DNA of 64,000 bases, taken from positions 2,501 through 66,500 of the forward strand of contig NZ_FNUM01000007.1 of NCBI RefSeq assembly GCF_900107995.1, given 5' to 3'. The stretch is from Alcanivorax sp. DSM 26293. GTDB lineage: Bacteria; Pseudomonadota; Gammaproteobacteria; Pseudomonadales; Alcanivoracaceae. This document shows, piece after piece, positions 3,917-56,072 of the stretch. The stretch's first letter is position 1; every line of letters starts with the position of its first letter. Both the position numbers and the translations under genes were made by a program. The notes beneath the pieces were generated by a model. The model searched no databases. It was given only the letters and a program-made list of their open reading frames with translations, and had not been told where the DNA came from.

Positions 3917-3987
3917 GGGGGTAGTTTCCCCCGCAAAAACGACGAAAAGTTGATCAAACAGTGAAGGTTTTGTGACAGCAGGACAGG

Positions 3988-4063
3988 AGCGAGTGACGAG
4001 AAGCGAGTTTCGAACCCCAACTCCATCTCTTTGCCTTTCGCTACTCGTAGCTCGTTACTCGCT
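3988..4063. repeat. Heptad-arm hairpin element A
   Basis: Left arm 3988-4015 reads as four heptads AGCGAGT GACGAGA AGCGAGT TTCGAAC. The right arm 4036-4063, read on the other strand, is AGCGAGT AACGAGC TACGAGT AGCGAAA. The loop is about 20 nt. It lies between erpA and the PAP2 gene, both on the minus strand. It shares CGAGAAGCGAGTTTCGAA exactly with element F (32720-32792). Confidence 0.8.
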
Positions 4064-4107
4064 TCTTTTGGGCAAAGAGGGCTTACGACAGAGGCAGCAA
4101 TGTATTC

Positions 4108-8849: not shown

Positions 8850-8860
8850 AAAACGCTTAA

Positions 8861-8920
8861 CGCCTGACGCCGGACTAAAAGGTCGCCCGCACGTCAGGCG
8901 TGCCGCGTCAGGCATTTTTT
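8861..8920 (+). promoter_or_regulatory. Competing hairpins and T-run directly before the thiD start
   Basis: CGCCTGACG (8861-8869) can pair with CGTCAGGCG (8892-8900). The nearly identical stretch GCCTGACGC (8862-8870) can instead pair with GCGTCAGGC (8905-8913), which is followed by A-T6 and then the thiD ATG at 8921. The two pairings exclude each other. The second looks like an intrinsic terminator whose U-run abuts the start codon. No TPP-riboswitch signature is seen. It could be the hemJ terminator, an attenuator of thiDE, or both. Confidence 0.55.
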
Positions 8921-23911: not shown

Positions 23912-25069
23912 ATGGCCACCGGCAAAAAGAAAGCCCCGAAAAAGGCGGCTAAAAAACAAACCACCGGGTCTGCTTCCAGCAGCAAAAAAGCCACCTCATC
24001 CACTGCTGCCCGCAAAGCACCAGCCAAAAAGGCCGCTGCAAAGAAGGCTCCTGCCAAGAAAGCCACGGTGAAGAAGGTGGCGGCAAAGCCTGCAGCCAAA
24101 AAGACCCCAGCCAAAAAAGCGGCCGCAAAGAAAGTCACCAGCAAGCCAGCCGCCAAAAAGGCACCGGCCAAGAAGGCCGCCGTGAAGAAGGCAGCGCCCA
24201 AGAAAGCCGTTGCCAAGAAACCGGCACCGGCCAAAAAAGCGACCGCCGCCAAACCGGCAGCCAAGAAAACAGCCACCCCAAAAGCCCCGGCCAAAAAGGC
24301 CGCAGCGAAAGCGCCGACCAGTAAGCCTGCCGCTCAAAAGGCAGTCCGCAAGCCAGCGGCGAAACAGGCCGTCGCGAAAACCCAATCCACTGCTGCCAGC
24401 GCCAAGCCGGCGAAGGCCAGCAAGCCCGCTGCCAAGAAACCGGCAGCCAAAAAAGCAGCACCGGCTGCACCTAGAACAAAACTGCCGACCTCCGGGAAGG
24501 CATCCGCAGCGGCCCGGGCCGCTGCCAGAGACGCATCGAACACCGGTAACGCACGGACCGCGACTGCCGGCAAAGGGACTTCGCCGAGCCGATCCACCAC
24601 TTCTGCTCAGGTAAAAGCAAACGTGAAAAAGAAAACCGCCTCATCTTCCTCGCAGGCCCAAATGCATGGTTTCAAACCCTACATGCCGGCCAAAAACGAG
24701 GAGTACATGAACGAGAAACAACGGGAGCACTTCCGCCAGATTCTGCTGGCCTGGCGCCAGGAGTTGATGGAAGAAGCGGATCGCACCATGCACCACCTGC
24801 AGGATGAGCAGGCGAACCTGCCTGACCCTGCTGACCGCGCCACCCAGGAAGAAGAGTTTGCCCTGGAGCTGCGCACCCGTGACCGCGAGCGCAAGCTGCT
24901 CAAGAAGATCGAGAAGACGCTGGATCTGGTCGACAAGGACGATTATGGCTACTGCGAAGCCTGTGGCATTGAAATCGGCATCCGTCGCCTGGAAGCCCGC
25001 CCCACCGCCGACCTGTGCATCGACTGCAAGGAACTGGCGGAGATCAAGGAAAAGCAGCTGGCCGGATAA
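23912..25069 (+). CDS. dksA: DksA with a histone-H1-like N-terminal extension
   Basis: RNA-polymerase secondary-channel factor that acts with ppGpp. Residues 251-385 are a full DksA core: helical start [20 protein letters not shown], the acidic coiled-coil tip [14 protein letters not shown], and a four-cysteine zinc site (YCEACG, LCIDCK) ending EIKEKQLAG. Residues 1-250 are low-complexity, made of Lys/Ala/Pro repeats such as [12 protein letters not shown], then a Ser/Thr/Ala linker; this resembles AlgP/histone-H1 tails that bind DNA. The frame is unbroken, so this is a real fusion. ATG 23912 has AAGGGAG upstream; ATG 23891 is also possible. An internal ATG at 24662 begins the core exactly and could give a short form. 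Confidence 0.93.
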
Positions 25070-25076
25070 CCTCCCC

Positions 25077-25188
25077 AGTTGACAGTGGACAGTTGATAGT
25101 TGACAGCTAGCAGGGCGCAAAGCGCCCTGCTTTGCTATCTGCTTGGCACTGTTTTCCGCTGTCAATTGTCAACTATCAACTGTCAACT
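25077..25188. repeat. Heptad-arm hairpin element B
   Basis: Left arm 25077-25104: AGTTGAC AGTGGAC AGTTGAT AGTTGAC. Right arm 25161-25188, on the other strand: AGTTGAC AGTTGAT AGTTGAC AATTGAC. Including AGC at the inner edge, 27 of 31 positions pair. The core holds the terminator-like hairpin at 25109-25131. The right arm ends directly at the gluQ ATG (25189), so it takes the place of the ribosome-binding site. Confidence 0.85.
25109..25131 (+). terminator. Hairpin after dksA, inside repeat element B
   Basis: Perfect 10-bp stem AGCAGGGCGC / GCGCCCTGCT with an AAA loop. The following TTGCTAT is a poor U-run, so termination may be partial. Confidence 0.5.
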
Positions 25189-26076
25189 ATGGTTTATCGC
25201 GGACGTTTCGCCCCCACCCCCTCCGGCCCCCTGCATTTCGGGTCCCTGGTGGCTGCGCTGGCCAGCTGGCTGGAAGCGCGCCACGCGGGCGGTGAATGGT
25301 TGATCCGCGTGGACGATCTGGACCCGCCCCGGGAAGTGCCCGGTGCCGCCGATACCATTCTGCGTCAGCTGGAAACCTTTGGCCTGCACTGGGATGGGCC
25401 CGTGCGTTACCAGAGCCAGCGCCACTTCGCCTATCAGGAAGCCGTGGATGCCCTGCTCGACCGCGGCTACGCCTTTCACTGTCGCCTGACCCGCAAACAA
25501 CTGGCCGCCCTCAACCATAACCATCCCGGCATCAGTGCCAGTGTGCCCGCCGCCGAGGATACCGCCATCCGCCTGCAGGTTCCCGACCGGGAGCTGGACT
25601 ACCCGGATGGCATTCAGGGGCGAATCAGCAACAACCTGCACCAGGACGGTGGCGCCTTCGTGATTCGTCGCCGCGATGGCCTGTTCGGGTATCAGCTGGC
25701 CTGCGCCCTGGACGATGCGGATGATGGTATTACCCATGTGTTGCGTGGTGCGGACCTGCTCGATTCCACCTTGCGCCAGCGCTGGCTGCTGGAATGCCTG
25801 GGCAGGCCTGCGCCGGAGTATGCGCATTTGCCGGTGGTCAGCGACGGCCGGAACCTGAAGCTGTCCAAATCCACCGGCAGTGAGGCCCTGGACCCCACTC
25901 GAGCCAGCCAGCTACTCACCGCCGCCCTTCACTGCCTGGGACTGCAGCCGCCCTCAGACCTGCAAGACGAACGCCCCGCAGTACTATTGGCATGGGGCAC
26001 GGCGCACTACCCCGATCACCAGTGGCCCGCGGGCCGACAGCAGCCATTGCCCGATGAGTTAAAAGTTCAACGTTGA
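25189..26076 (+). CDS. gluQ: Glutamyl-Q tRNA(Asp) synthetase
   Basis: Attaches glutamate to queuosine in tRNA-Asp. About 295 residues, a truncated GluRS without anticodon-binding domain. Seen: RFAPTPSGPLHFGSLV (HIGH region), the glutamate-site RVDDLDPPRE, LACALDDADDGITHVLRGADLL, and KLSKSTGSEAL (KMSKS region). The ATG at 25189 matches the family start and is flush with the right arm of repeat B, so no normal ribosome site is visible. The C-terminal residues ELKVQR and the TGA stop are encoded by the left arm of repeat C. Confidence 0.94.
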   Translation: MVYRGRFAPTPSGPLHFGSLVAALASWLEARHAGGEWLIRVDDLDPPREVPGAADTILRQLETFGLHWDGPVRYQSQRHFAYQEAVDALLDRGYAFHCRLTRKQLAALNHNHPGISASVPAAEDTAIRLQVPDRELDYPDGIQGRISNNLHQDGGAFVIRRRDGLFGYQLACALDDADDGITHVLRGADLLDSTLRQRWLLECLGRPAPEYAHLPVVSDGRNLKLSKSTGSEALDPTRASQLLTAALHCLGLQPPSDLQDERPAVLLAWGTAHYPDHQWPAGRQQPLPDELKVQR

Positions 26077-26210
26077 AAGTTTAAAAGCGCGAGAGGGTTT
26101 CGTGATTTCTGTTTGTCCGTGCCTGCGCCCTTGCCATGAATCGCGGGCACGACCTCGCCAGGTCTTCGACCTGGCCCGCGTTGCAACTTTACACTTTGAA
26201 CTTTCAACTC
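26056..26210. repeat. Heptad-arm hairpin element C
   Basis: Left arm 26057-26084: AGTTAAA AGTTCAA CGTTGAA AGTTTAA. Right arm 26182-26209, other strand: AGTTGAA AGTTCAA AGTGTAA AGTTGCA; both continue into GCG at the inner edge. The core has TCGCGGGCAC at 26141-26150 and a perfect hairpin GCCAGGTC-TTC-GACCTGGC (26157-26175). The left arm forms the end of gluQ, including its stop. Confidence 0.85.
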
Positions 26211-26276
26211 AGCCCCCGCTTTTACACGCCTCACCCCCTGGCGTATGCTCATCGGCCCGGAGGGGTTAAACCACCT

Positions 26277-26453
26277 ATGTATACCGACCGACTGCTGATC
26301 ATCTTCATTCTCGGCACCTACCTGCTTTCTCCTGCCATCATCGATTGGTGGAGCGAAGGTGGGCGCGCCTGGTATCGCCCCTATCTGATCTGGTTGGGCC
26401 TGATCGCCCTGAGCTACTGGATTGCCAAGAGCAAGGATGTCGATGGTCTATAG
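26277..26453 (+). CDS. cbrX: Small membrane protein CbrX
   Basis: 58 residues with two hydrophobic segments (about 7-21 and 36-50). A short hydrophobic frame overlapping the start of cbrA is known in Pseudomonas as cbrX, where it couples to cbrA translation; position and character match here. A GGAGGGG site lies 11 nt before the ATG. Its last codons contain the cbrA start (11-nt overlap). Biochemical role unknown. Confidence 0.78.
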   Translation: MYTDRLLIIFILGTYLLSPAIIDWWSEGGRAWYRPYLIWLGLIALSYWIAKSKDVDGL

Positions 26454-29400
26454 TGTCAGCGATCTGATCCTGATTGCCGGTTGCTACCTGCTGTTCCTGT
26501 TTGCGGTGGCCTGGATCACCGAGCGTGGCTGGCTGCCGGCTCACTGGGTACGCCACCCGGCGGTGTATGTGCTGTCGCTGGGGGTCTACGCCAGTGCCTG
26601 GGCCGTGTACGGTTCAGTGGGTTATGCCTACCAGTACGGCTACAACTTCCTGTCCTATTTTCTGGGGATTTCCGGGGTCTTTCTGCTCGCCCCGATTTTG
26701 CTGGCACCGATTCTGAGGCTGACCACGACCTACCAGCTCAGCTCCCTGGCGGACCTGTTTGCCTTCCGTTACCGCAGCCGACTGGCTGGCGCCATGACGA
26801 CCCTGATCATGCTGATCGGGGTACTGCCCCTGCTCGCGCTGCAACTGAAGGCGGTCGCAGAATCCATCCAGATCCTCAGTGGCACCGCCGACCCCCGCGA
26901 CCTGGCCGCCGGCTTCTGCCTGATGATGGTGATCTTCGCCATCCTGTTCGGCGCCCGCCATACCACCGCCCGGGAGAAGCACGAAGGGTTGGTGATGGCC
27001 ATTGCCATGGAATCGCTGATCAAACTGCTGGCCTTCGGCGCAGTGGCCTTGCTCGGCCTGTATGGCGTGTTCGATGGGCCCGCCAGCCTCAACGCCTGGC
27101 TGGATGACCACCCGGAAATGCTGGCGCGGCTCTACTACCCCCTGCAGGACGGTACCTGGCATTCCATGATCATGGCGTTCTTTGTCTCCGCCGTGGTGCT
27201 GCCGCACATGTTCTACATGGCCTTTACCGAAAACATGAACCCCCGCGCCCTGATCACCGCCAGTTGGGCGCTGCCGTTGATGTTCCTGCTGATGGCATTG
27301 TGCGTGCCGGTCATCCTGTGGGCCGCAGCTGCCGGCAATGCCCCCACCCCACCGGATTATTACGCCCTGGGTATCGGCATGATTAGCGGTGGCCACGGTG
27401 CGGTGCTCGGCTATATTGCCGGCCTGGCCGGGGCCAGCGGCATGCTGATCGTGGCCACCCTGGCGCTGTCCGGCATGTGCCTGAATCACCTGGTACTGCC
27501 CGCCAGCCCGCTGCAGGGCCAGAACCTGTATCGCAATCTGCTCTGGACCCGGCGCATCCTGATCGCCGCCATTCTGGCCCTGGCGTATCTTTTCTACCGC
27601 TTCACCGGCACCGATCACACCCTGGTGGAACTGGGAGTGCTCACCTTTGTGGCCACCCTGCAATTTGTCCCCGGACTGATTGGCGCCCTGTTCTGGCCCT
27701 CCGGCAACCGCAACGGCCTGTTCGCCGGGCTGCTGGTCGGCTTTATCCTGTGGATCATGTTGCTGCTGGTTCCCATCGCCTACCCGAACTGGCAGTTCCA
27801 GCCACTGATGGAATTGCTGGGCATGCGCTTCCAGAGCGGCGCCAGTCAATGGCACCACGTGGCCATTGCCTCGGTCACCGCCAATGCGCTGATCTATGCC
27901 ATCGTATCCATCGTCACGCCCATGTCCCGATCGGAGAAGAACGCCGCCGAGGCCTGTGCGGTCGACAGCCTGCGCCGCCCCTATCGCTGGGAGCTGGAAG
28001 CAAAGAGCGTGGACGATTTTATTGATGCCATGAGCCAGCCCCTGGGGCCCATCACGGCCACCCGGGAGGTGGAAATGTCCCTGCGGGATCTGCACCTGCC
28101 GCGCACGGAAACCCGCCCCTATGCCCTGCGCCGTCTGCGTGATCAGCTGGAAACCAACCTGTCCGGTCTGCTTGGCCCTTCGGTGTCTCACCAACTGATC
28201 GACGACCACCTGCCTTACCTGCCGGAGGAAGAGCAGCATTCCAGCGAGGATATCCAGTTCATTGAATCCCGCCTGGAGCAATACCGGGATCGTCTGTCCG
28301 GGCTGGCGGCGGAGCTGGACGGCCTGCGCCGCTTCCATCGTCAGACTCTTCTGGAACTGCCCATGGGGGTGATTTCCCTGGGGGCTGACCGGGAAATCAT
28401 CGGCTGGAACCGGGCCATGGAAAGTCTCACCGGCATCACCGCCGAGAACACCATCGGGTCACGACTGGCGGATCTGGATGCACCCTGGGGCGATTTCTTC
28501 ACCCGCTTCAGTCACGACGACAACCCCCACCAGCCCCAACAGGCCCTGGAAGTGGACAATCAGACCCGCTGGCTGAGCCTGCACAAGTCCGAAGTGATGG
28601 GGGCCGGCACTGCCGAACAGGCCGGGGGCCAGGTACTGGTGATCGAGGACATTACCGAACTGCGCCACATGGAGGCCCACCTGGCTCATAACGAACGACT
28701 CGCCTCCATCGGCCGACTGGCGGCCGGCGTGGCCCACGAAATTGGCAACCCGGTTACCGCTATTGCCTGCCTGACCCAGAATCTGGATGAAGACAGCGAC
28801 CCGCAGGAACAACAGGAAGCCTGCGACCAGATCCTTGAGCAGACCCGACGCATCACCCGCATTGTGGAATCCCTGGTGACCTTCAGCCACTCCGGCGGCA
28901 TCAAGCTCAGCGAACAGGTGCCGGTGAACCTTCGCGATACCGTGGACGAAGCCATTTCATTACTGCTGCTGGATCCGGATCATCGCCAGCAGCCGTTCGA
29001 GAACCACTGCCCGGCCAGCCATTGGGTCAAAGGTGATCCGCAGCGGTTGTTGCAGGTGTTTATCAACCTGCTTGGCAATGCCGCCGATGCCAGCGAAAAG
29101 GCACTGCCGGTCACCGTGCATTGTGAGCCCCGTGGGGATTTCCTCGATATTCTGCTGGAAGACCAGGGTCACGGCATCCCGGACAACCTGCGCGACGCCC
29201 TGTTCGAACCCTTCGTCACCAGCAAGCCACCGGGGCGCGGGACAGGCCTTGGGCTGGCGCTTGTGTACAGTATTATTGAAGAGCATCAGGGCAGCATTCG
29301 AGTAGAAAGCCCGCTCAACGATGACGGCGGCACCCGCTTTGTGGTCAGCCTGCCTGTGCACCAGCAACACGCTGCTGACCCCGGGCACCCGGAAACGTAG
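26443..29400 (+). CDS. cbrA: Sensor histidine kinase CbrA with transporter-like input domain
   Basis: Membrane sensor of about 985 residues for carbon/nitrogen balance, partner of CbrB. The N-terminal 500 residues are a solute:sodium-symporter-like (SLC5) domain with about 13 membrane segments. After a linker comes a PAS domain (about 640-740, LPMGVISLGADREIIGWNRA), a HisKA domain with phospho-His at 765 in VAHEIGNPVTAI, and HATPase with NLLGNAADAS, DQGHGIP and GRGTGLGLALV. In Pseudomonas CbrA its SLC5 part moves histidine. ATG 26443 has AAGG 6 nt upstream; ATG 26437 is in frame. cbrB follows after 38 nt. Confidence 0.95.
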   Translation: MVYSVSDLILIAGCYLLFLFAVAWITERGWLPAHWVRHPAVYVLSLGVYASAWAVYGSVGYAYQYGYNFLSYFLGISGVFLLAPILLAPILRLTTTYQLSSLADLFAFRYRSRLAGAMTTLIMLIGVLPLLALQLKAVAESIQILSGTADPRDLAAGFCLMMVIFAILFGARHTTAREKHEGLVMAIAMESLIKLLAFGAVALLGLYGVFDGPASLNAWLDDHPEMLARLYYPLQDGTWHSMIMAFFVSAVVLPHMFYMAFTENMNPRALITASWALPLMFLLMALCVPVILWAAAAGNAPTPPDYYALGIGMISGGHGAVLGYIAGLAGASGMLIVATLALSGMCLNHLVLPASPLQGQNLYRNLLWTRRILIAAILALAYLFYRFTGTDHTLVELGVLTFVATLQFVPGLIGALFWPSGNRNGLFAGLLVGFILWIMLLLVPIAYPNWQFQPLMELLGMRFQSGASQWHHVAIASVTANALIYAIVSIVTPMSRSEKNAAEACAVDSLRRPYRWELEAKSVDDFIDAMSQPLGPITATREVEMSLRDLHLPRTETRPYALRRLRDQLETNLSGLLGPSVSHQLIDDHLPYLPEEEQHSSEDIQFIESRLEQYRDRLSGLAAELDGLRRFHRQTLLELPMGVISLGADREIIGWNRAMESLTGITAENTIGSRLADLDAPWGDFFTRFSHDDNPHQPQQALEVDNQTRWLSLHKSEVMGAGTAEQAGGQVLVIEDITELRHMEAHLAHNERLASIGRLAAGVAHEIGNPVTAIACLTQNLDEDSDPQEQQEACDQILEQTRRITRIVESLVTFSHSGGIKLSEQVPVNLRDTVDEAISLLLLDPDHRQQPFENHCPASHWVKGDPQRLLQVFINLLGNAADASEKALPVTVHCEPRGDFLDILLEDQGHGIPDNLRDALFEPFVTSKPPGRGTGLGLALVYSIIEEHQGSIRVESPLNDDGGTRFVVSLPVHQQHAADPGHPET

Positions 29401-29438
29401 TATCCTGCTCAACCCGACAAGTAAGGACCCAGCGATAC

Positions 29439-30767
29439 ATGAGTCACATCCTGATTGTTGAAGATGAACCGGTGATTCGCGGTGCGCTGCGCAAACTGCT
29501 GGTACGCCACGAACACTCCGTGGCAGAAGCCGACTCCGTGGAGCAGGCCCGGGAGCAGCACCTCAATCAGTTTGATCTCATCATCAGCGACCTGCGCCTG
29601 CCCGGCGAGCCCGGCACCGCCCTGATTGCCAGTGCCGGCGCGACCCCTGTGCTGATCATGACCAGTTATGCCAGCCTGCGCTCCGCGGTAGACGCCATGC
29701 GCCAGGGTGCGGTGGACTATATTCCCAAGCCCTTCGATCACGATGAAATGCTGCTGGCCGTTGAGCGGGTGCTCAAGGAAGGTCGTCTGAATAGAGGCAA
29801 TCGCGCTCTGCGTCGGGATATGGAACGCAGCTACCCGGTGCATAATATGATCGGTACCAGCGATGCCATGCAGGAGCTCAAGCATCGCATCCAGCGGGTA
29901 GGCCCCACCAATACACCGGTGCTGATCATGGGCGAGTCCGGCACCGGCAAGGAACTGACCGCCCGCGCCCTCCATGAGCAAAGCGAACGGGGTGGCGGCC
30001 CGCTGATCTCGGTACAGTGCGCCGCACTGCCAAAAAACTTGCAGCTGACGGAACTGTTCGGCGATGAAGAAAGCGCCGGGCGCATCGAAGAAGCCGATGG
30101 CGGCACCCTGTTTCTCGACGAAGTCGGTGAATTGAACAGCGATGTGCAAAGCCGTCTGCTGACCCTGCTCACCCATCACGAAATACATCGCCAGGGCTCC
30201 CTGTCACCGCGCAAGGTGGACGTGCGCATCCTTGCCAGTAGCCAGCTGGATTTACCCGGCCGGGTTGCTGAGGGCCATTTCCGTCAGGATCTGTACTACC
30301 GGCTCAATGTGATGGAACTGACCCTTCCTCCCCTGCGCGAGCGCCAGGATGACCTGCAAAGCCTGGCCAACGCCCTGCTCGCACGCGGCTGCGAGAAACT
30401 CAATCGCCACGACCTCTACTTTACCGATGCGGCCTGGCAGGCCATGGTCGGGTACAGCTGGCCCGGCAATGTGCGGGAGCTGGAAAACGTGATCGAGCGA
30501 GCCATTATTCTCACTGAAGAAGACGGCATCGGCCCCTCCCAGTTGGGGCTGAACCCCAACCGCACCCCGCAGCGAGTGAGCCGCGCCAGCCTGGATCCCA
30601 GTGAAGACCTGTCCCTGGAGGATTATTTCACCCGCTTTGTCATGGAAAATCAGGACAGCATGACCGAAACCGAGCTGGCCCAGAAACTGGGCATCAGTCG
30701 CAAGAGCCTGTGGGAGCGCCGGCAGCGACTGGGCATTCCCCGCAAAAAAGCCGGTGGTCGCCGCTAA
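29439..30767 (+). CDS. cbrB: NtrC-type response regulator CbrB lacking the GAFTGA loop
   Basis: 442-residue regulator. Receiver (1-120) with acidic pocket VEDEP and phospho-Asp51 in ISDLRLPG; AAA+ domain with Walker A MGESGTGKE, Walker B GGTLFLDEVGE, arginine finger FRQDLYYRLNV and sensor II WPGNVRELEN; Fis-type HTH at the end (ELAQKLGISRKSLWERRQRL). The sigma-54-contact loop is missing: LFG (206-208) is followed by DEESAGRIEEADGG, about nine residues shorter than NtrC-type proteins, with no GAFTGA. By analogy with TyrR, HupR or R. capsulatus NtrC it may act at sigma-70 promoters. Context (cbrX-cbrA upstream, crcZ-pcnB downstream) supports the identity. Confidence 0.92.
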   Translation: MSHILIVEDEPVIRGALRKLLVRHEHSVAEADSVEQAREQHLNQFDLIISDLRLPGEPGTALIASAGATPVLIMTSYASLRSAVDAMRQGAVDYIPKPFDHDEMLLAVERVLKEGRLNRGNRALRRDMERSYPVHNMIGTSDAMQELKHRIQRVGPTNTPVLIMGESGTGKELTARALHEQSERGGGPLISVQCAALPKNLQLTELFGDEESAGRIEEADGGTLFLDEVGELNSDVQSRLLTLLTHHEIHRQGSLSPRKVDVRILASSQLDLPGRVAEGHFRQDLYYRLNVMELTLPPLRERQDDLQSLANALLARGCEKLNRHDLYFTDAAWQAMVGYSWPGNVRELENVIERAIILTEEDGIGPSQLGLNPNRTPQRVSRASLDPSEDLSLEDYFTRFVMENQDSMTETELAQKLGISRKSLWERRQRLGIPRKKAGGRR

Positions 30768-30893
30768 TTAACCGCTTGTCCGGGCCAGAGAACCGGCGAG
30801 ACGGGATTTGCGCCAGGCCATGTAAAAAATATTGCGCCCTGATGCCCACACCCCGTTCTGGATTTCCTGACAAAAGAGCCGCGATGGGCATAA

Positions 30894-30933
30894 GTGTTAC
30901 CGCGCTACACAGGCAGGTAACACCAAGGTTACA
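30894..30933 (+). promoter_or_regulatory. CbrB-type palindrome upstream of crcZ
   Basis: GTGTTACC (30894-30901) and GGTAACAC (30916-30923) form an exact inverted repeat with 14 nt between; a further GGTTACA half-site lies at 30927-30933. TGTTAC/GTAACA half-sites are those described for CbrB at the Pseudomonas crcZ promoter. The AT-rich stretch 30940-30990 after it would hold the promoter. No GG-N10-GC (-24/-12) sequence was found. Confidence 0.65.
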
Positions 30934-30999
30934 AATTTCGTGAAACTATTTACGGTTATTTTAATTATTGATCACAAGTCTTTGTTTTTTAAGGAATTC

Positions 31000-31240
31000 A
31001 CTCTTTGTTGCATTGCCCCGGTGTGACGGGCACTATGAATCCCACGCCAGCTAACAAAAAAAACATCGGCGTACAGGCTCAACAATAACAACAAGAAAGA
31101 AGAAGAATAATTTCACGAGCCAATGCAATGCTGCTGCAACTGATGATTGCAGCGACAAGGCAGAAAACAACACAAACAATAATAACAACAGAATCAGCGC
31201 AAAATATGGGAGTCACAACTTCGGTTGTGGCTCCTTTTTA
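31000..31240 (+). ncRNA. crcZ: CrcZ-like small RNA (Crc/Hfq antagonist)
   Basis: The 570-bp gap between cbrB and pcnB is where crcZ lies in Pseudomonas. It has no coding gene but three A/C-rich clusters of the AANAANAA type bound by Hfq/Crc: about 31055-31064, 31081-31111 and 31164-31190. It ends in a strong intrinsic terminator. The 5' end is a guess (30990-31020). CrcZ sequesters Hfq/Crc and so lifts carbon catabolite repression. The sequence between the clusters does not look like known CrcZ, so identity rests on position, motifs and terminator. Confidence 0.72.
31209..31240 (+). terminator. Intrinsic terminator of crcZ
   Basis: 11-bp stem GGAGTCACAAC / GTTGTGGCTCC (one G-U) with a TTCG tetraloop, followed by TTTTTA. 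Confidence 0.88.
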
Positions 31241-31337
31241 CTTTCTGGGCCACGCCCAAACCGGCCAGTATCTCAATAGACGAGAAAAAGTGCTACTATC
31301 GCCGCTTTATTGCACACCTTGAGGCTAATACTGACGC

Positions 31338-32711
31338 ATGCCCTGCAAGTTCCTGGAACGTATGACTGACTGGTTTAAGAAGGGTTCCCCAAAAAACCGC
31401 AGAACGTTCGAACCGCGAGTCATTCCCCGCGACCAACATCCCATCTCCCGCAAACAGGTGTCTCGCGCTGCACTGGATGTGCTCTATGGCTTGCACAAGG
31501 CCGGCTTTGAAGCCTATCTGGTGGGCGGTTGCCTGCGGGACATTCTCTGCGGTCGCGAGCCCAAGGATTTCGACGTATCCACCAATGCCACGCCGGAACA
31601 GGTGAATCGCCTGTTCAAGCGCAGCCGCATCATCGGTCGTCGTTTCCAGATCGTGCATGTGCGTTTTGGCCGCGAGGTCATCGAGGTCTCCACCTTCCGT
31701 GCCATGAATCGCGAGGACAACCCGGACCGGGACCAGCATCACGCCCACGAGGAAACCGGCCTGGTCTTGCGCGACAACACCTGGGGCAGTATCGAGGAAG
31801 ATGCCCTGCGGCGGGATTTCACCATCAACGCGCTGTACTACAACATCGCCGACTTCACTCTGCATGACTTTGTCGGCAGCCTGGATGATATCGAACAAGA
31901 GGTCATCCACCTGATTGGCGACCCGGAGACCCGCTTCCGGGAAGACCCGGTCCGTATGCTGCGCGCCGCCCGCTTTGCCGCCAAACTGGGCTTTCACATC
32001 GACCCTGCCACCGGCGATCCGATTCCGGAACTGGCCGAGTTACTGCTGCAAGTCCCCGCCGCCCGCCTGTTCGATGAGGTGCTAAAGCTGTTCCTCAGCG
32101 GCCATGCCCGGGAGTCCTACGAGCAACTCCAGCACCTGGGCCTGTTTCGCTTCCTGTTTCCGGAAACCCAGCAAGCGCTGGAGGGTGAAAAAGGGAACAT
32201 CTGGGAGGCCATGCTGCTGGCTGCCATGGACAATACCGACAAACGCCTGGCCGATAACAAGCCGGTCACCCCCGCCTTTATCTATGCAGTACTGCTGTGG
32301 CCGGTGATTCAGCAGCGCATGGGGCACTACCTTTCCAGCGGTCTGCCGCCGGCCCAGGCTCTGCACAAGAGCGCCACCCGTGCCCTCAATCAGCAGATCA
32401 AGCACACCGCCATCCCGCGACGTTTCTCCACAGTGATGCGAGAAATGTGGGAACTGCAGCTGCGTCTGGATAAACGTGCCGGCAAGCGCGCTGATGCCCT
32501 GATGGAACATCCCCGCTTCCGCGCCGCCTATGATTTCCTGTTGCTGCGCGAGCAGGCCGACGAAATCAAGCCGGGACTTGGCGATTGGTGGACCCGCTAC
32601 CAGGAACAGGATGAGCAGGGCCGCCGGCAGATGATCAGCCAGCTGGGCAACCCGTCCGGCGGTGGCAACAAACGACGACGGCGGCGGAAAAAGCCGGCAG
32701 CGGAAGGCTGA
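31338..32711 (+). CDS. pcnB: Poly(A) polymerase I
   Basis: Adds 3' poly(A) tails that mark RNA for decay. 457 residues. Seen: EAYLVGGCLRDILCGREPKDFDVSTNA (nucleotidyltransferase head with catalytic Asp pair, split here as GGCLRD and KDFDVS), the RRDFTINALYY motif, and DPVRMLRAARFAAKLGF. The C-terminal tail is strongly basic (KRRRRRKKP), typical for PAP I. ATG 31338 or 31362 could be the start. The location next to crcZ and folK matches Pseudomonas. Confidence 0.95.
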   Translation: MPCKFLERMTDWFKKGSPKNRRTFEPRVIPRDQHPISRKQVSRAALDVLYGLHKAGFEAYLVGGCLRDILCGREPKDFDVSTNATPEQVNRLFKRSRIIGRRFQIVHVRFGREVIEVSTFRAMNREDNPDRDQHHAHEETGLVLRDNTWGSIEEDALRRDFTINALYYNIADFTLHDFVGSLDDIEQEVIHLIGDPETRFREDPVRMLRAARFAAKLGFHIDPATGDPIPELAELLLQVPAARLFDEVLKLFLSGHARESYEQLQHLGLFRFLFPETQQALEGEKGNIWEAMLLAAMDNTDKRLADNKPVTPAFIYAVLLWPVIQQRMGHYLSSGLPPAQALHKSATRALNQQIKHTAIPRRFSTVMREMWELQLRLDKRAGKRADALMEHPRFRAAYDFLLLREQADEIKPGLGDWWTRYQEQDEQGRRQMISQLGNPSGGGNKRRRRRKKPAAEG

Positions 32712-32719
32712 CAAAACAA

Positions 32720-32792
32720 GGCGAGCGAGGAAGAGCGAGCTTCGAAAGGCAACCCGGTGTTGGTTTTCGAAACTCGCTTCTCGCAACTCCCA
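32720..32792. repeat. Heptad-arm hairpin element F
   Basis: Left arm 32720-32747: GGCGAGC GAGGAAG AGCGAGC TTCGAAA. Right arm 32765-32792, other strand: TGGGAGT TGCGAGA AGCGAGT TTCGAAA. Loop 17 nt. It fills most of the gap between pcnB and folK and uses the same heptad word as element A. Confidence 0.75.
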
Positions 32793-32826
32793 GCCTGCCC
32801 TTTCCTGATCAGAACCGAGAGCCCTT

Positions 32827-33330
32827 ATGCACGCGTTCATTGGCCTTGGCAGCAATCTGGACCACCCCTCGCAGCGGCTGATCTCGGCCCTGCGGGCGCT
32901 GCAACGGCTACCCGGCCTGACCCTGTGTCACCATTCGCGCCTGTATGCCAGCGCTCCTGTGGGCCCCCGGGACCAGCCGGACTACGTCAATGCCGTGGCC
33001 GACATTGACACCCCACTCTCCCCCCACGCCCTACTGCATACCCTGCAGGCCCTGGAACTGGCGGCGGGCCGGCAACGCCTGCGCCATTGGGGCGAACGCA
33101 CCCTGGATCTGGACATCCTGCTGATCGGCGACAGCCACATTGACAGTGACGATCTGCAAGTTCCCCACCCGCAAATGACCCGGCGGGCTTTTGTCCTGGA
33201 ACCGCTCCTGGAAATTTGCCCTCATGCCCTCTTGCCGGATGGCACCGCACTGCGTAGTTTTCTCGGTCAGGTAGCTGAACAACCGATTTCACCGTTGGCA
33301 GAGCTGGATCGCGATGCACTCATCGAATGA
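32827..33330 (+). CDS. folK: Hydroxymethyl-dihydropterin pyrophosphokinase
   Basis: Transfers pyrophosphate from ATP to 6-hydroxymethyl-7,8-dihydropterin in folate synthesis. 167 residues. Signatures: FIGLGSNLDHPSQRL at the start, RHWGERTLDLDILLIGD (HPPK signature with Mg-binding Asp pair), and VPHPQMTRRAFVLEPL. Overlaps the kinase gene downstream by 17 nt. folP, the next enzyme, is at 52 kb. Confidence 0.96.
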   Translation: MHAFIGLGSNLDHPSQRLISALRALQRLPGLTLCHHSRLYASAPVGPRDQPDYVNAVADIDTPLSPHALLHTLQALELAAGRQRLRHWGERTLDLDILLIGDSHIDSDDLQVPHPQMTRRAFVLEPLLEICPHALLPDGTALRSFLGQVAEQPISPLAELDRDALIE

Positions 33331-34015
33331 CAAAACCCTAACCGAACGCATTGAACAACGTCGCCAGGCCCGCACGCTGCCGCGCTTTATCGCGGTAGAG
33401 GGGCCTATTGGTGCCGGCAAGACCAGCCTGGCGAAACGCCTGGCAATGACCTTTGGCTATGACCTGCTGCTGGAACAGGCCAGCGACAATCCCTTCCTCA
33501 CCCGCTTTTATCAAGACCCGGCCCGTTATGCCCTGCAAACCGAGCTGTTCTTCCTGTTTCAGCGTGCCGACCAGTTACGCCAGATCCAGCAGCAGGACCT
33601 GTTCGCCGGGCCCCGTATCGCCGACTTCCTGATCGACAAGAACCGGCTGTTTGCCCGGGTCACTCTGGACGATGATGAATTCGAGCTATACCGCAATGTG
33701 GATGACCACCTCACTCTCGATGCACCACAACCGGATCTGGTGATTTATCTGCAGGCGCCTTCCCAGGTACTGCGCCAGCGCATCGGGCGCCGTGGCAACG
33801 ATTTCGAGCAGGGCATCCAGAGCGATTACCTGGACCGTCTAAGCGATGCCTACACCGAATTCTTCCATTTTTATGACCGCGCACCGCTGCTGATCGTCAA
33901 TGCGGCGGAGATTGATCTGGTCAACCACGATCGCGACTACCAGCAACTGGTGAGCGAGTTGCTGGACATCCGTTCCGGGCGCCACTATTTTAACCCCCGG
34001 CCGCTGGTCGACTGA
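33314..34015 (+). CDS. Deoxynucleoside kinase family protein
   Basis: P-loop kinase of the dCK/dGK family, 233 residues: FIAVEGPIGAGKTSLAKRLA (Walker A), the ERS-like region around FLIDKNRLFARV, and LVIYLQAPSQVLRQRIGRRG (LID/arginine region). Such genes sit between folK and panB in Pseudomonas too. The nucleoside used is not decided. The ATG lies inside folK. The A of its TGA stop is the first base of repeat D. Confidence 0.88.
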   Translation: MHSSNDKTLTERIEQRRQARTLPRFIAVEGPIGAGKTSLAKRLAMTFGYDLLLEQASDNPFLTRFYQDPARYALQTELFFLFQRADQLRQIQQQDLFAGPRIADFLIDKNRLFARVTLDDDEFELYRNVDDHLTLDAPQPDLVIYLQAPSQVLRQRIGRRGNDFEQGIQSDYLDRLSDAYTEFFHFYDRAPLLIVNAAEIDLVNHDRDYQQLVSELLDIRSGRHYFNPRPLVD

Positions 34016-34171
34016 GTTGAAAGTTCAAAGTTGAAAGCTCAAAAGCGCGGAATAGCATGTCGCCTCTCTGATGACGCCCTGCCCGCGACACTTTTGACAG
34101 CCTCGCGGGCACAACCTGTACACAGCTTCAGACTTGACCGCGTTTCAACTTTCAACTTTCACCTTTCAACT
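34015..34171. repeat. Heptad-arm hairpin element D
   Basis: Left arm 34015-34042: AGTTGAA AGTTCAA AGTTGAA AGCTCAA. Right arm 34144-34171, other strand: AGTTGAA AGGTGAA AGTTGAA AGTTGAA; both run inward to GCGG. The core has an inner 9-bp perfect stem TGCCCGCGA (34080-34088) / TCGCGGGCA (34103-34111). It occupies the gap between the deoxynucleoside kinase gene and panB. Confidence 0.85.
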
Positions 34172-34193
34172 GAATTTCCCTGGGAGGTTTCCC

Positions 34194-34982
34194 ATGTCAG
34201 TAACCATCCGCACCCTGCATAAACGCAAACAGGACGGCGAGAAATTTTCCGTACTCACCGCTTACGACGCCTGTTTTTCCCGGCTGATTTCGGAAGCCGG
34301 CGTAGACGCCATTCTGGTGGGGGACTCCCTGGGAAACGTGATACAGGGCCAGAGCAGCACGGTACCGGTGACCCTGGAACAGATGGCCTACCACACGGAA
34401 TGCGTGGCCCGGGGCAATCAGGGCAGCCTGATCATTGCTGATGTGCCCTTCATGGGGGCCGCCACCCTGGAACGTGCGCTGGAAACCGCCACGGCGCTCA
34501 TGCAGGCCGGCGCCAATATGGTCAAGCTGGAAGGCAGCGCCTGGCTGGCGGACAGCATCGAGATCCTCAATCGCAATGGCATCCCGGTCTGCGCCCATCT
34601 GGGCCTGACTCCCCAGGCGGTGAACGCTCTCGGCGGCTACCGGGTCCAGGGCAAGGATGACGCCGGCGCCAGCGAACTGCTGGCAGCGGCCAAAGCACTG
34701 GATGCGGCCGGCGCCGCCATGCTGCTGCTGGAGTGCGTGCCCCGGGAGCTCAGCGCCCGTATTACCCAGGAAGTGAGCGTGCCGGTCATCGGCATCGGCG
34801 CAGCCCCGGAGTGCGACGCTCAGGTGCTGGTGATGCACGACATGCTCGGCATCAGCCCCGGCAAACCGGCCCGCTTCGTGAAGGATTTCATGGCGGAAAC
34901 CGGCGATATTCGTGCCGCCTTCCAGGCCTATGACCAGGCAGTGAAAGACGGCAGCTTTCCTGCCGATGAGCATTGTTTCTAG
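34194..34982 (+). CDS. panB: Ketopantoate hydroxymethyltransferase
   Basis: First committed step of pantothenate synthesis. 262 residues: [30 protein letters not shown] (Mg site), [37 protein letters not shown], and [22 protein letters not shown] (motifs in family order). GGGAGG lies 6 nt before the ATG. Heptad elements D and E flank it on both sides. Confidence 0.97.
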
Positions 34983-34989
34983 AAAAACC

Positions 34990-35169
34990 AGCGGCAAGCT
35001 ACAAGCTTCAAGCTACAACGCGGGTCAGGACATCGTAAAACTGCAGCATTTTGGTCCGCGCACAAACGCTTGGGGAAGAATCCCCCGGCAAAAAATCGCG
35101 GGCAGGGAGCCAGTCAGTCAGCACTGGCCTCCCCCGCGCCTTGTAGCTTGAAGCTTGTGGCTTGCAGCT
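34990..35169. repeat. Heptad-arm hairpin element E
   Basis: Left arm 34990-35017: AGCGGCA AGCTACA AGCTTCA AGCTACA. Right arm 35142-35169, other strand: AGCTGCA AGCCACA AGCTTCA AGCTACA; 26 of 28 positions pair, then a GCGGG/CCCGC extension. The 124-nt core contains TCGCGGGCA at 35096-35104 and two smaller hairpins. It separates panB from panC by 207 nt. Confidence 0.85.
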
Positions 35170-35189
35170 TTCTTACCCGAGGATTCCCG

Positions 35190-36047
35190 ATGCAAACCGT
35201 CCATACTGTCTCCCAGGTTCGTGAATATGTGCGCGGCTGGCACCAGAAAGGTCTGTCCGTGGGGTTTGTGCCCACCATGGGCAACCTCCATGACGGTCAT
35301 ATCAGCCTGATCAAGGAAGCCCGTGCCCGTTGCGACGTGGTGGTGGTCTCCATCTTCGTCAACCCGACCCAGTTCGGCCCCAACGAGGATTTCGACCGCT
35401 ACCCGCGCACCCTGGACGCGGATGCCGCTGCCCTGGTGGACGCGAGCACAGACCTGCTCTTTGCCCCCTCCGTGGACGAGATGTACCCCTCTGGCCAGAA
35501 CCAGACCTGGGTAGACGTGGACGCTCTGGGCGAGCATCTGTGCGGGGCCAGCCGGGAAGGTCACTTTCGGGGCGTTACCACGGTGGTGGCCAAACTGTTT
35601 AACATTGTTCAGCCGGATGTGGCCGTATTCGGCGAAAAGGACTTTCAGCAACTGGCCATTCTTCGCCGCATGAGCGAAGAACTGCTGTTTCCGGTCAAGA
35701 TCGTCGGCGCCCCCACCAGTCGGGAGAGTGACGGTCTGGCGCGCAGTTCACGCAATGGCTTTTTGACCGAAAGTGAGCGCACACTCGCGCCACAGATATA
35801 CCAAACCCTGCAAACCCTGAAAGCCGATATTGAAGGCGGCGAACAGGATTATCGGGCCCTGGAACAGCGCTACCGGGACAGCCTGAACCAGGCCGGCTTC
35901 CAGGTGGACTATCTGACTGTCGCCAACGCGCGCAGCCTGGCGCCCGCCAGCGCCGGGGATACCGATCTGGTGGTCGCTGTGGCCGCCAAACTGGGGAATA
36001 CTCGATTGATAGACAATGTCAGTCTGGCCGTTGTGCGTGACCGGTGA
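35190..36047 (+). CDS. panC: Pantothenate synthetase
   Basis: ATP-dependent joining of pantoate and beta-alanine. 285 residues: FVPTMGNLHDGHISLI (HIGH-type), SIFVNPTQFGPNEDF, GEKDFQQLAILRRM, and RESDGLARSSRN (KMSKS-type loop). The ATG at 35190, with GAGGA 6 nt upstream, matches the family start; the frame upstream is repeat E. Confidence 0.97.
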   Translation: MQTVHTVSQVREYVRGWHQKGLSVGFVPTMGNLHDGHISLIKEARARCDVVVVSIFVNPTQFGPNEDFDRYPRTLDADAAALVDASTDLLFAPSVDEMYPSGQNQTWVDVDALGEHLCGASREGHFRGVTTVVAKLFNIVQPDVAVFGEKDFQQLAILRRMSEELLFPVKIVGAPTSRESDGLARSSRNGFLTESERTLAPQIYQTLQTLKADIEGGEQDYRALEQRYRDSLNQAGFQVDYLTVANARSLAPASAGDTDLVVAVAAKLGNTRLIDNVSLAVVRDR

Positions 36048-49845: not shown

Positions 49846-50592
49846 TTATTCCGCCGCCTGACAGATAGCAATAAAACTGTCGGCTGTTAACGATGCCCCG
49901 CCTATCAGACCCCCATCGATGTCTGACTGGGCAAACAGAAGGGCGGCATTATCCGCCTTTACACTGCCGCCGTAAAGCAAGCACAGCGATTCAGCGATAT
50001 CCGGATCGTTTTTTTCCAATGACGCCCGCAACGAGGCGTGCACTTCCTGGGCCTGCTCCGGGCTGGCAGTCCTGCCGGTGCCGATGGCCCACACAGGTTC
50101 ATAGGCCACCACCGCCTTACCGAAAGCCGCAATACCTACGGCATCAATCACCGCCTGCAACTGTCCACAGACCACGGATTCCGTGTTTCCGGCTTCACGC
50201 TCTTCCAGGGTTTCTCCCACACAGAGGATCGGAACCAGGCCCGCGGCCTGGGCGCGAGAAAACTTGTCGGCGATCACCGCATCGGTTTCCCCGTACAGGG
50301 CACGGCGCTCGGAATGACCCACAATCACGTGACTGCAGCCCACCTCCGCAAGCATGGCTGCGGACACCTCGCCAGTGAAAGCCCCGTCATCCTGATCACT
50401 CAGATTCTGCCCACCCACCTTGATGGCCGCCGGCAGCTGGCTTCTGGCCGCAGCCAGGTAGGGAAAGGGCGGACAGATCAACACCTGCGCCACACCCTCA
50501 TAGCTGCTCAACGCTTCCGCCATCTCAGACAGAAGTGCCTCCCGCCCGTTCATTTTCCAGTTACCGGCAACCAGCGGTGTTCTTGATTTCAT
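49846..50592 (-). CDS. tpiA: Triosephosphate isomerase
   Basis: Interconverts DHAP and glyceraldehyde-3-phosphate. 248 residues: NWKMNG (catalytic Lys), VIVGHSERR (His), [11 protein letters not shown] (Glu, loop 6), and [15 protein letters not shown] (phosphate site). First gene of tpiA-secG-tRNA-Leu, 44 nt after glmM. Confidence 0.98.
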
Positions 50593-56035: not shown

Positions 56036-56044
56036 CTTTTCCCT

Positions 56045-56072
56045 TGCAACTTGAACCTTTCAACTTGCAACT
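56045..56072. repeat. Single heptad arm (half element G) at the end of greA
   Basis: Minus strand: AGTTGCA AGTTGAA AGGTTCA AGTTGCA, starting with the A of the greA TGA stop, the same junction (TGAGTTG) as at the deoxynucleoside kinase stop. No inverted partner is present; the next structure is the terminator at 56009-56035. Confidence 0.7.

Follow-up and report, generated by a model that had tools for sequence, protein, structure and literature searches.

We have analysed 64,000 nucleotides of the genome of Alcanivorax sp. DSM 26293 (contig NZ_FNUM01000007.1, positions 2,501 to 66,500; this whole stretch is referred to here as the window), in which gaps between protein genes hold hairpins whose arms consist of tandem 7-nt repeats, or heptads, with the partner arm being the inverted copy. 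We consider it probable that these hairpins belong, as gene-less and non-autonomous forms, to a group of mobile elements that carry a gene for the 23S rRNA intervening-sequence protein (IVP, PF05635), that the group is kin to the intervening sequences (IVS) of rRNA, and that the IVP protein reads the heptads. The observations that support this proposal directly are that inverted heptad arms bracket IVP genes in three data sets, that IVP elements and gene-less hairpins have heptad words in common, that IVP elements occupy sites which are empty in relatives, that the hairpins are placed at stop codons, and that words diverge along with the IVP protein; the reading of heptads by the protein is what we infer from them. 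In the following, G-numbers are labels within a set of 17 genomes of the genus, G000 being the genome of the window, and L-numbers denote fetched loci.

A word-free detector (28-nt arms, period-7 identity of at least 13/21 in each arm and inverted identity of at least 18/28) found exactly four hairpins over the 64 kb, B to E, whereas 60 dinucleotide shuffles gave none. This confirmed inverted pairs of period-7 arms for element B (AGTTGAC word, 25077..25188, between dksA and gluQ), element C (AGTTNAA word with a CGCG core, 26056..26210, with the end of the gluQ open reading frame (ORF) falling within its left arm), element D (AGTTNAA word, 34015..34171, whose first A is at the same time the final base of the TGA that closes the gene upstream of panB) and element E (CAAGCTN word, 34990..35169, between panB and panC). 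Relaxed settings (12/21 and 17/28) gave six matches, namely B to E, element A (CGAGNNN word, 3986..4065) and a GC-rich match at 50422-50575, whereas the shuffles averaged 0.13 with a maximum of 2. Element F (32720..32792, between pcnB and folK) was missed by the detector because its right arm is weak, and was recognized by eye as a CGAG-word hairpin; element G (56043..56072) is a single heptad array, or half copy. None of these features is assigned to a strand. The first-pass annotation of this DNA, which had described such hairpins, was thus correct in their basic form, as it was in claiming a core common to C, D and E, all three of which contain the motif CGCGGGCA. It did not include a further, degenerate hairpin with the word GACGCCN at 8852..8915 (strand likewise unassigned), which we read by eye; the same gap is occupied in five relatives, the detector being passed in G001 and G008, and the word also flanks IVP genes in G013 and G007. 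The window elements sit between protein genes, not in 23S rRNA, and are themselves gene-less, and an Rfam scan of 24500-36000 gave no match on the hairpins.

Among the fetched loci, there was a single case of a gene between far inverted arms, L112, and it led to IVP. The L112 gene belongs to PF05635 (E 1.3e-31) and to TIGR02436 ('four helix bundle protein'), and the nearest solved structure to its product is 2gsc, that of the IVP relative XCC0516 of Xanthomonas campestris (E 7e-15). We observed 46 PF05635 matches in 16 of the 17 genus genomes and none in 14 control genomes. The genus census took 44 of the 46, with two fragments below the cut-off excluded, and inverted heptad arms flank 42 of these 44 genes, as compared with 0 of 468 displaced intervals. 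Displaced intervals replaced, for the final bracket tests, a first control on ORFs (35/752 ORFs bracketed vs 42/55 IVP loci), in which many loci had been chosen for their hairpins and genes between two hairpins were counted.

The layout recurs in distant bacterial phyla and on plasmids. Thirty cross-phylum IVP loci, the best-scoring of a longer list of matches, yielded 28 that were usable (the flanks of L435 and L439 were cut), and 19 of the 28 are bracketed. Outside the family, the bracket is present at 16 of 25 IVP loci, a count that omits L418 (which is locus L381) and two Alloalcanivorax loci, and at 1 of 336 displaced intervals. In a sample of 27 genomes chosen for AGTT hairpins (three of them Alcanivoracaceae), PF05635 was present in 26 (24 above cut-off), against 0 of 14 control genomes. 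The outside loci have new words, including AGTCGTA and TTAGTGG (Clostridia), AGTTGCT (Terriglobus), GGGAGAT (Chamaesiphon) and others. On plasmids, IVP genes were located solely through their protein sequence (23 records matched, 18 fetched); 13 of the 18 are bracketed, and two further loci, L453 and L455, look bracketed by eye. The bracket is also present at 5 of 98 displaced intervals on the plasmids, which are close to the arms, these loci being short. In the phage records searched, there were 0 matches to the IVP protein.

Each IVP has its own heptad word, and nine words are common to IVP elements and gene-less hairpins of the genus: AGTTNAA, CAAGCTN, CGAGNNN, AGTTGAC, ARTKAAY, AATTGAT, CACGC, GACGCC and GAGCT. 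The genome of the window carries three IVP elements, L462 (AGTTGAC), L400 (CAAGCTN, C7:197229) and L386 (CAGTTNT). The right arm of element B and one end of L462 share 31 identical nt, and the word of element E is that of L400. Elements C, D, A and F share words only with IVP elements of other species: AGTTNAA-word IVPs are present in G008, which has the most AGTT matches, and in Alloalcanivorax gelatiniphagus (L399, L429), an IVP with a mixed AGTT/CAAGTT word is present in G003 (L390), and CGAG-word IVPs are present in G004, G011, G012 and G014. CGAG IVP elements and several CGAG hairpins also share the sub-end CGAAA[AG]GCA. At gap B (gaps being named for the window elements), the word of the hairpin fits that of the resident IVP above shuffled pairings (0.738 vs 0.696, p=0.028, n=14, with gap B of G015 excluded), the misfits being G009, G003, G016 and G004.

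Related Nostoc plasmid backbones have filled and empty sites for IVP elements, and we conclude that the elements insert as units into empty sites. In pNsp_a, an IVP element with the word CAGAAGT is preceded by AGGTTCTAAAT and followed by GATTCTAG, and the empty relatives read AGGTTCTAGG or AGATTCTAGAT; the comparison therefore places the target GRTTCTA, with the stop codon, on both sides of the insert. In pNsp_c, an IVP element with the word GGGAAAA sits within a TAATG stop/start overlap and is flanked by ATG on either side. A third gap holds an IVP element in N. edaphicum and C052, a gene-less hairpin in pNsp_c (with a worn GGGAANA-like word and an inverted identity of 18/28) and neither in C057, although the flanks of this gap are not clean; nor is the 7003/7002 pair, which has a 32-nt difference at the site. 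Repeats of 3-10 nt are present at two of the Nostoc junctions. The insertion polymorphism on these plasmids is thus one of IVP elements, and for gene-less hairpins the corresponding observations are copy number and replacement at the same gap.

Word and protein vary together. Word likeness rises with IVP likeness, from ~0.45 for distant pairs to 0.80 for close ones (37 pairs with protein similarity of at least 0.8). Mantel tests, which used the 58 loci with arms out of 71 tried, gave r=0.52 (p=0.001) within the Alcanivoracaceae (n=31), r=0.13 (p=0.023) elsewhere (n=27) and r=0.08 (p=0.044) over all 58 loci.

The hairpins of the window are not isolated cases: the detector found 67 distinct hairpins in the fetched parts of G000, of which 26 have the word AGTTNAA, 25 CGAG, 12 AAGCTN and 4 another word. 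Over the whole of G000, AGTTNAAAGTTNAAAGTT gave 56+52 matches with at most 1 mismatch (reversed control 19+13), AGCTNNAAGCTNNAAGCT gave 69+105 on the same terms (control 3+4), many of them from a few long direct arrays, and exact CGAG at 3-nt spacing, three times, gave 90+84 (control 0+2); all of these counts include overlapping registers. In AGTTNAA and AAGCTNC heptads, 6 of the 7 positions are fixed and one is free, and in CGAGNNN 4 are fixed and three are free. An arm of four heptads, or 28 nt, which had been proposed as constant, is what AGTT arms most often have (17/26 left and 21/26 right arms) but is not a rule, as CGAG arms mostly have 3 full heptads (17/25 and 23/25 arms) and the range across the three word classes is 2 to 14. 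Similarly, the two arms of a hairpin use the same word as a class word, yet facing arms are barely more alike than permuted ones in the AGTT class (0.861 vs 0.834, p=0.0175) and not so in the AAGCTN class (0.853 vs 0.847, p=0.35); for CGAG, facing arms are clearly more alike (0.752 vs 0.695, with 0 of 2000 permutations reaching the former).

Two types of core were seen. The first, of ~90-120 nt with inverted CGCG motifs, goes with the words AGTTNAA, CAAGCTN, CAAGTTN, CACGC and ARTKAAY, and in the AGTT class it has the layout ..GCGCGGG..TGCCCGCG..CGCGGGCA..CCGCG.. The second is shorter and goes with CGAG and AGTTGAC words, the CGAG version being CGAAAAGC..AAAACC..GGTTTT.. With regard to placement, for which gene directions rest on crude ORF calls, AGTT-class hairpins lie just 3' of genes, with 23 of 29 stop-codon distances within -19 to +7 nt. 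There are 46 co-directional AGTT hairpins from several species; in 11 of them, the stop codon ends precisely at the opening base of the arm, and in 6 it ends within the first heptad. The 67 hairpins of G000 comprise 40 between co-directional genes, 16 between convergent genes, 2 between divergent genes (5 with uncertain cases), 7 inside an ORF call and 2 unplaced; divergent placement was seen in 8 of 84 Alcanivorax AGTT hairpins. The base pairs neighbouring the Alcanivorax AGTT hairpins are GG in 23 cases, CC in 19, GC in 18 and CG in 1, a distribution that is confounded by stop codons.

The same gaps across the genus genomes hold hairpins with different words (gap B of G010 reads N, and the G012 stretch is without gaps B and C), and the gap of element A has different content in all five relatives shown. 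The median score for core likeness was 42.5 for orthologous hairpins of the same word (128 pairs) and 13.0 for orthologous hairpins of different words (191 pairs), as compared with 12.5 (same word, 159 pairs) and 13.0 (different word, 848 pairs) for non-orthologous hairpins; word labels here come from a simple motif count, which is in error for gap B of G005 at the very least (AATTGAT was called AAGCY). Because different-word cores at one gap are non-homologous, most word changes between species look like replacement; the drifting word of the first-pass annotation is half borne out, by drift in place at gaps B and C. Gap C of G006 has a CAAGTT/CAAGCT mixture around a core as in G001, G003 and G010 (scores 74, 70 and 66), and gap B drifts within ARTKAAY, with heptad numbers that vary among the orthologues. 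Also, the core of gap C (window 26056-26210) is inverted in G008 relative to G009 and G011 (scores 82 and 86 inverted, 12.5 and 16 direct), and inversion of this core between species also concerns G002 and G004. The core inversion at gap C and the changes in heptad number at gap B indicate that arms exchange, recombine or slip.

Copy number differs widely. AGTT-hairpin matches (overlapping registers) number 266 in G008, 42 in G000, 1 in G006 and 0 in G005 and G015, with 0 in the reversed control for all 17 genomes, and in a class-wide sample AGTT hairpins occur in 2 of 369 genomes, G000 being one. Related cores are found within single genomes, the best scores being 59 and 49 in G008 and 54 in G009, as compared with a maximum of 19.5 in 600 shuffled pairs; the two G008 cores that score 59 are separated by ~0.8 kb and might stem from a local duplication, whereas 49 is the next score down. 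These related cores point to copying inside the G008 and G009 lineages. The AGTT cores of G000 are worn (median score 13.5). AGTT-armed hairpins occur in at least 112 stretches of named genomes. Among the matches listed, 40 of 80 such stretches, counted by title, lie outside the Alcanivoracaceae and Pseudomonadales, and the groups represented among them are Acidobacteriota, Bacteroidota, Anaerolineae, Planctomycetales, Chamaesiphon, Verrucomicrobia, Clostridia and Parcubacteria. The cores of these outside hairpins differ (38 examined, alongside two from Alloalcanivorax). In the viral contigs searched, there were 0 AGTT or CAAGCT hairpins.

We propose the following mechanism. The gene-bearing form is an element of ~410-570 bp, in which roughly four direct heptads are followed by a single gene, encoding a four-helix-bundle IVP/S23 protein (PF05635), and then by the same heptads inverted. 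An IVP oligomer would read the heptads, with one lineage-specific word per IVP lineage, and would thereby recognize its own element plus every gene-less hairpin of the same word. It would act on the element ends, probably as a folded hairpin, with a putative strand-transfer activity. Surviving inserts would be found at stop codons because the target would bring a stop codon to both sides. The hairpins of an IVP lineage that disappears or gives way to another would remain and decay. An alignment of 57 IVP sequences has a conserved Q..R...s.p.niaEG core and no recognized nuclease motif, so strand transfer would come from elsewhere or from an unrecognized activity. If the element moves with neither a known transposase nor a known recombinase to its name, it might use a host nuclease, or might proceed at the RNA level with a reverse transcriptase, such as the one served by Avd of diversity-generating retroelements, which shares the IVP fold.

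Several observations weigh against this proposal. To our knowledge, no enzyme chemistry has been described for IVP, and its conserved residues suggest none. The link between word and gene could arise as co-divergence through descent alone, so that recognition is not proven by it. No gene-less hairpin seen in the genus has either of the IVP words GACGTC and CAGTTNT, and the hairpin cores are not derived from IVP elements, with non-orthologous cores of the same class hardly alike. The genome of the window has no IVP with an AGTTNAA or CGAG word despite having such hairpins, although the lack of an AGTTNAA-word IVP is in keeping with the worn AGTT cores there, and G015 has neither a PF05635 match nor a Y1_Tnp match and yet has a CAAGCTN hairpin at gap D. 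The bracket is missing at threshold in 16 of 90 IVP loci (L410, which is among them, shows arrays), and none of the 84 Alcanivorax AGTT hairpins showed a target duplication of at least 5 nt. Also, the authors of the report on the Coxiella IVS (PMC4990558) doubt that the Coxiella S23p protein is expressed in vivo.

The first-pass annotation had suggested a conserved machine, for example a RAYT-like nuclease. The idea of a machine is upheld by the bracket around 42 of 44 IVP genes; that the hairpins are elements of the RAYT/REPIN type, moved by a Y1 transposase, we regard as very improbable. RAYT genes and repetitive extragenic palindromes (REPs) do occur in G000, and some CGAG hairpins are nested between inverted GTAG REPs. 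Yet the four Y1_Tnp (RAYT) genes of G000 include none between inverted heptad arms, no GTAG tag stands beside the heptad arms of the 84 Alcanivorax AGTT hairpins, and RAYT totals (Y1_Tnp counts, with all RAYT lineages pooled) do not track AGTT matches (4 and 1 in G006, 4 and 42 in G000, 6 and 266 in G008). RAYT as the machine was therefore rejected, the RAYT genes having REP-type palindromes beside them and not heptad arms. It is equally hard to credit that the arms are chromosomal binding arrays for a DNA-binding protein of the ribbon-helix-helix type, as for omega, which reportedly recognizes heptads; such arrays leave the IVP bracket, the multitude of words and the mobility unaccounted for. 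Selection on the folded form, which the first-pass annotation had offered as an alternative, would at the RNA level mean elements kept for 3'-end protection or termination by selection on the transcript. The close abutment of AGTT hairpins on stop codons, their rarity between divergent genes and the terminator-like centre of a few hairpins speak for such selection, but it seems improbable to us, and it found no support in the mismatches of 44 co-directional elements, where the transcribed strand has no G.U bias (48 of G.U type vs 54 of A.C type, p=0.62; 36 vs 44, p=0.43). In 8 of 11 cases it is the complementary strand that folds with the lower energy, and unrelated words replace each other at the same gap.

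We also weighed whether heptad hairpins arise by themselves, through 7-nt polymerase slippage and template switching between arms, with the IVP genes as passengers. In one survey, most genomes had heptamers as their commonest long simple repeats, and a 7-nt polymerase footprint has been proposed (Mrazek 2007, as related in PMC4679880). Long perfect heptad arrays exist, and heptad number at gap B and core orientation at gap C change between species in a manner that slippage and template switching would allow. However, close IVPs keep close words (the mean of 0.80 given above), heptads have fixed positions beside free ones (6/7 fixed in AGTTNAA and AAGCTNC, 4/7 in CGAGNNN), unlike recent slippage copies, and whole IVP elements enter empty sites as units. 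Moreover, likeness among heptads within an arm is much the same as that between different elements of a class (0.783 vs 0.786, 0.804 vs 0.789 and 0.668 vs 0.683), and for this reason a self-homogenizing palindrome was rejected as the sole cause. We consider this origin unlikely, less so than the RNA-level one.

Among known systems, the nearest to IVP elements are the IVS of 23S rRNA, which RNase III cuts out and for which mobility, but no mechanism, has long been suggested. In the Coxiella report, the IVS is a selfish element with an S23p ORF and with tandem heptamers at its 5' end, three before the ORF in some strains and two in others; it is proposed to be a remnant of transposition, or a mobile element whose ORF served mobility, and S23p is a family without known function (PMC4990558). 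The Xanthomonas S23p protein is a pentamer (Lin 2006, as cited there). The likeness thus extends to a PF05635/S23p gene, a length of a few hundred nt, a stem formed by terminal inverted sequence and, in Coxiella, heptamers. In contrast, the elements described here lie between protein genes and not in 23S rRNA, have high-copy gene-less relatives and use a different word for each IVP lineage. REP/REPIN sequences with RAYT, and miniature inverted-repeat transposable elements (MITEs), are similarly short, palindromic, gene-less and multi-copy and are thought to be driven by a gene elsewhere, and, as in MITEs, ends are common with a gene-bearing element of the same genome (B and L462 over 31 nt; E and L400 in word). 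They differ from our hairpins, which have tandem-heptad ends, no GTAG tag and a linked gene of PF05635 that is not a known transposase.

Other heptamers invite comparison. The GGGAATC heptamers of Xanthomonas usually come in groups of four, close to the 3' ends of upstream ORFs, and the two genomes studied have 70 and 75 inverted pairs (Rehm et al. 2015, PMC4692102). These and the GGGGA(C/T)T heptamers of Nostoc are, like ours, intergenic and rare between divergent ORFs; they were studied as formers of G-quadruplexes, whereas the main Alcanivorax words (AGTTNAA, CAAGCTN and CGAGNNN) are seen from their sequence to be without G-runs, and the accessible text of that study makes no link to IVP. 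The TAACTGA repeats of the Beggiatoaceae are likewise lineage-specific intergenic heptads, in 2-6 copies and also in some Cyanobacteria and Bacteroidetes, but they are direct repeats with one exception and lie near start codons (PMC4679880). A broader proposal, which we put forward tentatively and at somewhat short of even chances, is that IVP elements constitute a separate class of bacterial transposable elements, in which a lone IVP oligomer moves the element and its gene-less kin, that the rRNA IVS are members which landed in rRNA, and that many heptameric simple repeats (those of Xanthomonas and Nostoc, perhaps also those of the Beggiatoaceae) are their footprints. This would give one explanation for scattered heptameric repeats that have been discussed as G-quadruplexes, polymerase slippage or translational control. 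The anatomy of IVP with inverted heptads, the gene-less derivatives and the filled and empty sites make binding and movement of heptads by IVP testable. In the open-access literature searched, we recognized no paper that links IVP genes with inverted heptads in general, and six heptad strings, searched as printed sequence in open-access literature, gave no match.

There were also some minor observations. A terminator-like central stem, GGCCGCG..CGCGGCC, is present in G000 at C7:676912, C7:743736, C22:173453 and C18:135054 and in the homologues of window gap B, and in several hairpins this centre is followed by T-runs. Long, near-perfect direct arrays of (AGCTACA)n occur at L112-L117 (C7:197604, C7:611207, C18:203414, C10:84243, C20:124195 and C20:149900), three of them with assembly gaps, and adjoin a conserved flank that is GGTTGGATAGGGAAAG..GGAACTTTCC-like; a (CGAGCTA)n array of ~40 copies is present in G003. 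On cyanobacterial plasmids, some IVP genes lie inside CRISPR-cas operons, in the orders cas6-IVP-cas4 (L445, L452) and cas10-IVP-cmr3 (L455); the cas10-cmr3 junction of Picosynechococcus sp. PCC 7002 is without the insert. The RAYT genes of G000 are L031-L034 (C13:372207, C17:7746, C7:230033 and C7:226394), and the REP-type palindromes near them are GTAGGAGC-tagged (GTAG) at two and of the GTTGGAGC and GAAGCGATGC types at the others; GTAG/CGTC REPs are dealt with in PMC3733652. Gap F of G006 holds another palindromic repeat (CCACAGAGGGCACAGAG..CTCTCAGTGCCCTCTGTGG) where G000 has element F, and a similar sequence is found at a different gap in G010. Finally, window positions 31051-31265, just upstream of pcnB, gave a weak Rfam match to the small RNA CrcZ (20.6 bits; gathering score 95), which in Pseudomonas lies at this place as well.

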